Shown one piece after another: positions 17,235 through 41,789 of a stretch of 57,178 nt of DNA. This stretch comes from Methanothrix sp. (GTDB lineage: Archaea; Halobacteriota; Methanosarcinia; Methanotrichales; Methanotrichaceae). The stretch is from the NCBI GenBank assembly GCA_029907715.1, contig JARYLI010000010.1, positions 1 through 57,178 on the forward strand. The letters are read 5' to 3'. Position 1 is the stretch's first letter. Each line of letters begins with the position of its first letter. Under the pieces are notes generated by a model. It was not told where the DNA came from. It was given only the letters and a program-made list of their open reading frames with translations, and did no database searches. The position numbers and the translations under genes were made by a program.

Positions 17235-17951
17235 ATGAGCCAGAACAATGGGGATCTCGACTGCGATCTGCATGGCCGGAAGACCTCATGGGATTGCGAG
17301 ATGGGTCAGCGCTCTATATGCATGCCGGAGAGCCGAAGCGAAGGAGATTCATATCCTCACGGTGGCGAGAGGGCCATACGCGTCAACAAGCCCGGGATAA
17401 GGGTGCTGGGGATCGCAGAGAGCTTCGTGCGTTCCGACCCTGTGTCCAAGCTGTCAGGCATTGTGATGCGCGGTGATCTGCGCATCGACGGCGTCGCGCT
17501 TGCGGAGATCACCGTGGGCGGGATGGACGCGACTGAAGGGGTGCTCTCGATATACAGAAAGCTCAACAGAGAAGATATCAATATTCTAATGCTGAGCGGA
17601 AATGTGGTCAGCTGGTTCAACATTATAGACCCGGAGAGGATACAGAGAGAGACCGGCCTGCCGGTGATCAGTGTCACATATGAGGAGTCCGAGGGGCTTG
17701 AGAGGTACATAGAGGAGTACTTCCCTGGAGATGCTGAGCGGCTCAGGAGATACAGGGCGCTGGGCGAGCGGAGCGCTCTCAGGCTTAAAACAGGATACGA
17801 CCTTTTTGTGAGAGCACATGGCCTGTCTCTGAAAGAGGCCAGGTCTGTGCTGAACAGATTCACACTTGAGGGAAGAATACCTGAGCCTGTAAGGGTTGCA
17901 AGGCTCGTCGCAAGAGCCGCAATGAGAATTGGGCGCGAGTCAGGAGAGTAA
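17235..17951 (+). CDS. DUF99 (UPF0215) family protein with an N-terminal extension
   Basis: The 238-residue protein belongs to the DUF99 family of archaea, seen from VNKPGIRVLGIAESF onward, with GVALAEITVGGMDATEGVLSIYRKL and TGLPVISVTYEESEGLE. Members have an endonuclease V-like fold, but no activity is established. The ATG at 17235 has GGAGG six bases upstream. About 50 residues precede the usual family start; they contain three or four Cys and His (DLDCDLHGRKTSWDCEMG) and may be a small metal site. The last 20 bp of the gene overlap the 3' end of the RNase P RNA gene on the other strand. Confidence 0.82.
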   Translation: MSQNNGDLDCDLHGRKTSWDCEMGQRSICMPESRSEGDSYPHGGERAIRVNKPGIRVLGIAESFVRSDPVSKLSGIVMRGDLRIDGVALAEITVGGMDATEGVLSIYRKLNREDINILMLSGNVVSWFNIIDPERIQRETGLPVISVTYEESEGLERYIEEYFPGDAERLRRYRALGERSALRLKTGYDLFVRAHGLSLKEARSVLNRFTLEGRIPEPVRVARLVARAAMRIGRESGE

Positions 17952-18243
17952 GCCCCCTTCTGTTTCGGCGGCATTCAGCTTAGCGCCATACCCGGGCAAG
18001 GGGCTGGACACCCCCAGAGCTGCCCTATTTTGGCTTGCACCCACAGGGTTTCGCCGTTTCAGCTGCATTCCGTGAGACCTCCGCCTTTCGGCATCATCGC
18101 ATTATCACGGCGCAGTCCCGTTTCTGTGCCAGAGCCGGAGCTCTCGCCCCGCATCATCGCGATGCCTGTGTGTCCAGAGGTGGGGGGACTTTCCACACCG
18201 GCCGATGCCGGCCAGCGGCAGCCGCCCTTCCTCTCTCGCGCCC
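17931..18243 (-). ncRNA. rnpB: RNase P RNA
   Basis: This is the catalytic RNA that removes tRNA leaders. On the minus strand it has the conserved GGAAAGTCC (18194-18186), the GGGTGCAAGCC...AAATAGGG region, and the ACAGAAGGGGGCTTA element near the 3' end. The ends pair as helix P1: GGGCGCGAG at 18243-18235 with CTCGCGCCC at 17939-17931, nine perfect pairs. Length is about 313 nt, normal for archaeal type A. The P1 3' strand lies within the coding end of the DUF99 gene on the plus strand. No TATA element sits at the expected place, so the primary transcript may begin further upstream, for example from the TATA-like string near 18385. Confidence 0.93.
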
Positions 18244-35863: not shown

Positions 35864-36277
35864 GTGGAGATAAAATGCCATCGCGTCTCAGGCGGCTGCG
35901 CCGGCGGGCCGGCTCTCGTCACCAGAGAGCGGATCTCATTCCTGGGAAATGTAAATCCTGAGACAGGCATGGTCGTCGATCCATCCCACGAGCTTTACGG
36001 CAGATCAATCGCAGGAGCTGTTCTCATATTTCCGGGAGGCAAGGGCTCCACAGTCGGGTCATATGTCATCTACCAGCTCAGGAAGAGGGGTCTGGCTCCG
36101 GCTGCGATGATAAACCTGAGGTCTGAACCGATAGTGGCTGTCGGAGCCATTATAAGCGACATACCTCTTGTCGACAGGGTCCCGGAGTGGATCCTTGATG
36201 TGAAAGACGGCACCTGGGTCGTGGTCGATGCAGGAAGAGAGCTGGTGGTGCTTCCCGATGGATCGGTCCATGTGTGA
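35864..36277 (+). CDS. Phosphomevalonate dehydratase small subunit (DUF126)
   Basis: This 137-residue swivelling subunit of the AcnX-type dehydratase has its conserved blocks: GGPALVTRERISFLGNVNP, VVDPSHELYGRSIAGAVLIFP and GKGSTVGSYVIYQL, with the active-site serine in KGSTVGS. The start is GTG at 35864, with no gap after the large-subunit stop, a strict operon arrangement. The final product enters isoprenoid synthesis for archaeal ether lipids, to which egsA (47511-48575) supplies the glycerol phosphate backbone. Confidence 0.9.
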   Translation: MEIKCHRVSGGCAGGPALVTRERISFLGNVNPETGMVVDPSHELYGRSIAGAVLIFPGGKGSTVGSYVIYQLRKRGLAPAAMINLRSEPIVAVGAIISDIPLVDRVPEWILDVKDGTWVVVDAGRELVVLPDGSVHV

Positions 36278-36377
36278 CAAGCGCTCTTACTGTGGCAACC
36301 CGCTCGTGAGCATCCAGGTCTGCAAATGGGATCGCTCTTATCCATCTGATAACCTGTCTGCATAGGCACTGATCCTG

Positions 36378-36627
36378 GTATTTGCTCAATATGGTGAGCG
36401 TGCTTGAGTTACTGATCAAATGAAGCTGCTATGGCAGAGTCGTTCATCCAGAGATCCGTCGAGATGGCAATTTAGCTCCGCTCTTATCCATTTGATGACT
36501 TGCCCGAAGGAGCAGGGGTCATGCTATGCGTTCGTTTCGACGAATGAATGCTTTCATCGACCACATTGCATGCTCTGCAAGTTGCTACGCACATAAGAGC
36601 GTTTAGCTCGACGTATTGAGCATGTTC
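36378..36627 (-). mobile_element. R3 element nested in R2 (and itself carrying an R2)
   Basis: It begins GTATTTGCTC and ends GAGCATGTTC and is homologous, in reverse, to 8282-8390 and 40983-41102. It is bracketed by near-identical 8-mers TGATCCTG (36370-36377) and CGATCCTG (36628-36635) inside the outer R2. It is itself interrupted by an R2 at 36479-36601; without that insert and its duplication it is about 119 bp, equal to the copy at 40983. Confidence 0.82.
36479..36601 (+). mobile_element. R2 element (inner copy, 123 bp)
   Basis: A complete short-form R2, from CGCTCTTATCC to ACATAAGAGCG, is bracketed by a perfect 8-bp duplication TTTAGCTC (36471-36478 and 36602-36609). It lies inside the R3 at 36378-36627. 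By eye it differs from the copy at 56773-56895 at only about six positions of 123, so both probably moved recently. It lacks the central hairpin module found in longer copies. Confidence 0.9.
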
Positions 36628-36811
36628 CGATCCTGCTATGCGCTCGTTTCGACTTATCTTCGACGTAGTCGAAGTCCTAGCTAGCTAACGAATGCATTCA
36701 TCCGGCCTGCATGTCCTTCAAGTTGCTGAATACATAAGAGCGAATGGGATTTCACAGGTTGAGCGCTATCATCAAACCGATGCTGAATACAAAAAAACAG
36801 GGGGATTGGCT

Positions 36812-37108
36812 TCATCCGAATAGCGTGCCCATCCCTGCCTCTGCCGACTCCTGCTCCTCCCTGAAGGCATTTATCACCGACTCTGCCTCGTCGCCCTCGA
36901 GCAGCGTGGCAGGAGTGTCCGCTAGCAGCTTTCTGGCCCCCTCCACCAGATCATCCCTAGCCTTGATGTAAAGCAGGAACCCTTCCTTGTCGAACCCCAC
37001 AGACTTGGCCTCGCGAACTATCGGACCGAGCCTCTTGAAGAAGTCCTGATCCAGAACCTTTTTCATAACAGCATTTCCAGCCATATCGTAGTAGTAAGCA
37101 AGCTCCAT
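36812..37108 (-). CDS. Small conserved-looking protein, function unknown
   Basis: The 98-residue acidic, helical protein reads MELAYYYDMAGNAVMKKVL at the start and has no membrane segment, no cysteine cluster and no motif that I recognise. It follows the 63-residue gene at 37122-37313 by 13 bp on the same strand, so they form a two-gene operon. It lies immediately beside the nested repeat island at 36.3-36.75 kb. Coding is supported by composition, codon pattern and operon position only. Confidence 0.6.
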   Translation of the reverse strand: MELAYYYDMAGNAVMKKVLDQDFFKRLGPIVREAKSVGFDKEGFLLYIKARDDLVEGARKLLADTPATLLEGDEAESVINAFREEQESAEAGMGTLFG

Positions 37109-41472: not shown

Positions 41473-41789
41473 CGCTCTCATGTGTTTGGCAACTTATGGG
41501 TCGAGCAATGTGGTTGCTGAACGCACTTCATGCGTCATCGGTTAAGATCGACATGTGTAGAATTGGACTTAGTAGTCTCATCTCGCCTCAGTACTGCTAT
41601 CAGGACTCAAGTCCACAGGCGGTCGATTTGAATCAAACTCTCCACTATGGGGAGATCTCAATTTGTCAAATTTCATGATCAATATATTTACATAAAATCC
41701 TTAACCGATGACCAATGGAACGCACTTACTCATTCACCAGGAATGCATAGCAGGACCAGTGCTGCTATGCATATTATATGAATAAGACG
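41473..41789 (-). mobile_element. R2 element, degenerate, interrupted by R1 copy C
   Basis: The left part CGCTCTCATGTGTTTGGCAAC...AATGTGGTTGCTGAACGCACTT and the right part ACTCATTCACCAGGAATGCATAGCAGGACC...AATAAGACG together follow the R2 pattern read on the minus strand. The R1 element at 41529-41717 separates them. Flanking strings GGGGATTT and GGGGGTTT resemble a decayed duplication. The two pieces were one element before the R1 insertion. Confidence 0.72.
41529..41717 (+). mobile_element. R1 element, copy C (189 bp) with 10-bp target duplication
   Basis: Left end CATGCGTCATCGGTTAAG and right end CTTAACCGATGACCAATG are inverted repeats matching at 16 of 18 positions. The direct repeat GAACGCACTT flanks it perfectly (41519-41528 and 41718-41727). 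The interior is close to the copies at 8018 and 25488. It sits inside an older R2 element. It has no coding capacity, so it would depend on a transposase encoded elsewhere. Confidence 0.92.

Follow-up and report, generated by a model that had tools for sequence, protein, structure and literature searches.

MITEs are short, non-coding DNA transposons that have terminal inverted repeats, lack a transposase and are moved in trans, and where transposons are nested in eukaryotic genomes the order of insertion can be read from the target duplications. Archaeal MITEs were catalogued by Kamoun et al. in 2013, with stress on how difficult their autonomous partners are to recognise (PMC3852290), while the literature on plant and other eukaryotic nests describes younger elements interrupting older ones, with duplications that give the order (PMC3903597, PMC2213677). 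The two families described here, R2 and R3, resemble the archaeal MITEs of PMC3852290 in being short (about 120-150 bp) and non-coding, in their terminal inverted repeats, target duplications and high copy number, and in having an autonomous partner that is hard to recognise; they differ in that no transposase partner was found for them, and Methanosaeta is absent from the text of that paper. The locus itself is arranged like the eukaryotic nests but, unlike them, consists of MITEs of about 120-150 bp in a 2-Mb archaeal genome. No description of three-level archaeal MITE nests was found in the literature searched (which is not proof of absence), and the R2 and R3 families also appear to be undescribed there.

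The locus lies in a stretch of 57,178 nucleotides of a Methanothrix genome (hereafter the window), which is contig C10 of a 2.0-Mb assembly (G000) in 55 contigs; coordinates with a contig prefix refer to other contigs of this assembly unless another genome is named. The region is almost certainly a three-layer nest of MITEs formed by successive insertions of R2b, R3 and R2a, arranged as follows:

ending at 36277, forward strand: aconitase X swivel-domain gene, left of the gap
36278-36811, no strand: non-coding host gap between two convergent genes, the aconitase X swivel-domain gene and a 98-aa ORF
36325-36332, no strand: left target duplication of the outer R2b, AATGGGAT, with an identical copy at 36743-36750 in direct reading
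36333-36377, forward strand: left part of the outer MITE R2b, 45 bp, with terminal repeat CGCTCTTAT
36370-36377: left target duplication of R3, TGATCCTG, the last 8 bases of the left part of the outer R2b
36378-36478, forward strand: left part of the R3 MITE (GTATTTGCTCAATA...), 101 bp
36471-36478: left target duplication of the inner R2a, TTTAGCTC, the last 8 bases of the left part of R3
36479-36601, forward strand: inner MITE R2a, intact, 123 bp, CGCTCTTATCCA...CACATAAGAGCG
36602-36609, no strand: right target duplication of the inner R2a, TTTAGCTC, a perfect match to the left copy
36610-36627, forward strand: right end of the R3 MITE (...TATTGAGCATGTTC), 18 bp
36628-36635, no strand: right target duplication of R3, CGATCCTG, differing at one base from the left copy, TGATCCTG
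36636-36742, forward strand: right part of the outer MITE R2b, ending in ACATAAGAGCG, 107 bp, a 90% match to C3:142744-142857
36743-36750, no strand: right target duplication of the outer R2b, AATGGGAT, a perfect match to the left copy
36812-37108, reverse strand: 98-aa ORF, right of the gap

The three nested layers that the original prediction placed at 36325-36750 were verified in their coordinates, lengths and all three 8-bp duplications. Removing each layer restores a continuous element of standard length, as had been claimed and as full-length alignment with other copies now bears out, i.e., 45 + 107 = 152 bp for the outer R2b, 101 + 18 = 119 bp for R3 and 123 bp for the inner R2a. The restored R3 aligns with other copies over positions 1-119 (up to 98.3% identity) and the inner R2 over positions 1-123 (up to 99.2%), both ending at the same bases as these copies; the restored outer R2b aligns end to end with its best full-length relatives at 79-81%, and keeping the extra duplication in it gives a poorer alignment with an additional 8-base gap. 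That is, the boundaries of R2 and R3 in the nest coincide with element ends elsewhere in the genome, the point on which the original prediction had itself proposed to be judged.

R2 and R3 are real high-copy MITE families. R2 has CGCTCTTAT at both ends as its terminal inverted repeat and R3 has GTATTTGCTCAATA / GAACATGCTCAATA; genome-wide, the terminal 9-mer of R2, CGCTCTTAT, has 299 matches vs. 14 for the reversed control; for WTGCTCAATA, the R3 terminus, the counts are 106 vs. 1. We recovered 69 R2 and 25 R3 clusters from a 660-kb sample consisting of C1, C2 and the window (one third of the genome), and a scan of the same sequences for terminal pairs with duplications returned 32 for R2 and 10 for R3. 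Most other R2 and R3 copies bear 8-bp duplications and end at the same bases; 83 R2 insertions in all the sequence covered and 10 R3 insertions in the sample have such a duplication (8 bp with at most one mismatch). Positions 1-2 and 7-8 of the 83 R2 duplications are symmetrically biased towards A/T, and the R2 boundaries are therefore not due to chance; a symmetric preference within the target duplication is the usual sign of the staggered cut of a transposase. At 119-152 bp, R2 and R3 are too short for a transposase gene, and the ORFs that cross them begin or finish in the flanks. R2 is also present in the records of Methanothrix sp. SKW87, LCB019-064 and the 'Euryarchaeota' MAG JPMR_maxbin.022.

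The strict order of events, outer R2b, then R3, then inner R2a, can be read directly from the duplications, as had been proposed. The associated claim that R2 was active both before and after R3 stands for the terminal-repeat family as a whole and falls for any one subfamily, the outer copy being an R2b whose best full-length relatives match it at 79-81%, and the inner one an R2a with up to 99% identity to other copies.

The nest had also been called unusual for its depth, which our counts do not sustain: there are two more third-level nests in the 660-kb sample, R2b(R3(X5)) at C1:83680-84075 and R3(X4(R2)) at C1:131653-132096, where X4 and X5 are further MITEs of ~185 bp and ~115 bp, respectively, and about one such nest is expected at random (P(≥3) = 0.09). 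R2, R3, X4 and X5, together with a small contribution from one IS630, occupy 17.2 kb of the sample and 16% of its non-coding DNA as estimated by a crude ORF rule. When 139 elements were inserted sequentially at random into the non-coding space of the sample, the expectation was 14.3 ± 3.6 nested pairs and 0.98 third-level insertions, compared with ~16 pairs and 3 third-level insertions observed (the window nest included), with the qualification that the nest counts are minimal, about 3 of the 16 pairs come from flanks read by eye, and the random-insertion model is crude. Hence, nests are common in this Methanothrix genome because MITEs make up roughly one-sixth of its non-coding DNA, and a three-deep nest is an ordinary phenomenon in such a MITE-saturated archaeal genome, with no case for an anomaly. 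The window also contains a two-layer nest at 41473-41771, in which an R2 is interrupted by X4 (41532-41716), with R2 pieces on both sides.

Alternatively, nesting might be mainly target-driven, with the R2 transposase picking sites inside mobile elements so that nests exceed what random saturation would give, an account that we consider possible and rather doubtful. The evidence that favors it comes chiefly from X4: R2 is inserted at the identical X4 octamer AAGTCCAA (AAGTTCAA in one case) in five X4 copies (C1:52456, C1:131882, C2:74555, C5:69486 and C5:73750), one of the R2s being in the opposite orientation, and five hits on one X4 octamer have a chance probability of ~2e-6 even if only WWNNNNWW octamers are permitted. 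Two of these R2s, at C1:131882 and C2:74555, diverge by 23-30% from the others at this site, and several R2 pairs there are only 70-77% alike, in X4 bodies that are 85-92% alike; the three R2a copies at the site are 96-98% alike, and their X4 bodies 87-92%. As the R2s differ in subfamily and orientation, and the R2a copies are more alike than the X4 bodies that hold them, sequence comparison argues for separate insertions, and composite X4+R2 transposition is ruled out as the sole source of the X4(R2) copies, given that R2 orientation and subfamily vary. Against a dominant role for targeting, the same site is empty in 36 X4 copies of this genome, and the total number of nests matches random insertion into saturated non-coding DNA. 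An X5 is inserted ~3 bp from the X4 octamer site at C2:124089. Intact X4 target sites number 36 in the source genome vs. 3 in G003 and 1 in G005, two other Methanothrix genomes, and X4 is apparently a recent lineage-specific burst.

R3 offers similar indications on a smaller scale. The R3 site of the inner R2a of the nest (TTTAGCTC/TTTACCTY) is also used by an R2 at C9:8423-8547, and three R2s lie in the R3 terminus at positions 10-12, but this clustering is weak (P ~0.05) and the positions were picked after looking. The surrounding locus (C9:8190-8573; L050, L140) has two adjacent R2s in one R3. Their duplications are GAGGGCAA and TTTACCTT/C, and it is the second R2 that occupies the site shared with the nest. 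Target preference therefore contributes to nesting, and the overall number of nests is explicable without it. We would propose only tentatively that R2 mobilisation is partly sequence-specific, into defined MITE octamers such as AAGTCCAA in X4 and possibly TTTACCTC and TTTGCTCA in R3.

It is very improbable that recombination or gene conversion among dispersed repeats, and not three separate transpositions, produced the nest. Some R3 copies (L025/L026) have one flank in common and not the other, which suggests that repeats do recombine in this genome; however, all three layers of the nest have matching 8-bp duplications at the exact element ends (perfect for the outer and inner layers), which recombination would not produce, and each restored element is continuous. 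Even less credible is the idea that the region functions as a non-coding RNA or as a regulatory repeat instead of being a pile of dead insertions, for while it has inverted repeats able to fold, the nest has no Rfam match, lies between convergent gene ends, is missing from relatives with the same flanking genes, and has its whole structure accounted for by the three elements. Elsewhere in the window, an archaeal RNase P RNA is recognised at 17937-18237 on the reverse strand (Rfam RF00373, 207 bits).

Three successive insertions remain the favored account, and the same gene gap was compared with those of other Methanothrix genomes, a check that the original prediction had suggested. Both flanking genes are present in all five of the other genomes and the nest is at the orthologous gap in none of them, an outcome in favor of the original prediction; nor did any genome show just one or two of the layers. 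In the closest relative, G003, CTCGTGAGCATCCAGGT...ATTTCACAGGTTGAG continues across the insertion point and contains neither R2 nor R3 there; as an 11-bp indel next to the target site also sets this flank apart, it is not a perfect single-copy empty site. In G002, the flank matches are only ~65 bp apart (C111:4808 and 4873 of that genome) and therefore leave no room for the nest. As read by eye, the same convergent gap in G003 (L032, G003:C112) has, at another point, a separate R2-like element, independent of the window nest and interrupted by X5-like sequence and by a further insert with inverted repeats. The convergent gene gap is probably a site where insertions do little harm.

An autonomous partner of R2 or R3 would be expected to show the terminal signature CGCTCTTAT...ATAAGAGCG or GNAYWTGCTCAATA together with an 8-bp duplication, and the 660-kb sample has no terminal-inverted-repeat pair longer than 410 bp with a duplication. 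Transposases of the IS1595, DDE_Tnp_1, IS256 and ISL3 types, sought in the whole genome, turned up in few copies or none, and no copy is clearly delimited by the ends of R2 or R3; the IS630 genes of the genome are likewise not clearly bounded by such ends as their own termini. Several individual candidates were rejected. The IS256 element at C6:113287-114490 has its own ends, GTGTGCCGAAATTGCTGTAA, unlike those of R2 and R3, and the R3-like end downstream of it is a separate remnant. The IS1595-type element at 779-1706 of the window, for which the genome yielded no second copy, has only imperfect repeat flanks of the TCATAACA type, with no match to the R2 or R3 terminal inverted repeats; its transposase, on the reverse strand, extends over two ORFs (zinc ribbon at 1215-1706, DDE domain at 779-1252), and this insertion sequence has probably decayed. 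At C7:65530-66833, an IS630-type transposase flanked by R3 ends has the look of an autonomous R3 but is an insertion sequence inside an R3 copy, with R3 positions 1-55 and 63-119 on either side, and the converse, an R3 inside an IS630 copy, occurs at C13:32851-33306; the assembly breaks at IS630, as many contigs end in it. Finally, two R2 ends 1.3 kb apart (C1:136029-137326) enclose a 198-aa ORF that by eye resembles a small heat-shock protein, and no transposase.

The history read from these observations begins with the insertion of R2b between the two convergent genes, duplicating AATGGGAT, followed by the insertion of R3 into R2b, duplicating TGATCCTG, and then by that of a young R2a into R3, duplicating TTTAGCTC. 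The elements would be moved in trans by a cut-and-paste DDE transposase that makes 8-bp staggered cuts and is supplied by a putative insertion sequence, and R2 and R3 may, we infer, be mobilised at present. Nests of this sort form because R2, R3, X4 and X5 have saturated the scarce non-coding DNA of a compact genome, with target preference assisting, in that R2 favors A/T at both octamer ends and enters certain sites in other MITEs repeatedly.

In conclusion, this nest places the insertions of three archaeal MITEs in a clean relative chronology, and it illustrates the extent to which small non-autonomous elements can saturate the non-coding DNA of a compact genome. The nest itself adds nothing new on mechanism; the repeated use of one X4 octamer by R2s of different subfamilies, in both orientations, is what offers a way to approach target choice by an archaeal transposase. 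If such R2 targeting is true, MITE nests in Methanothrix would be built by targeting, with one element serving as the docking site for another.
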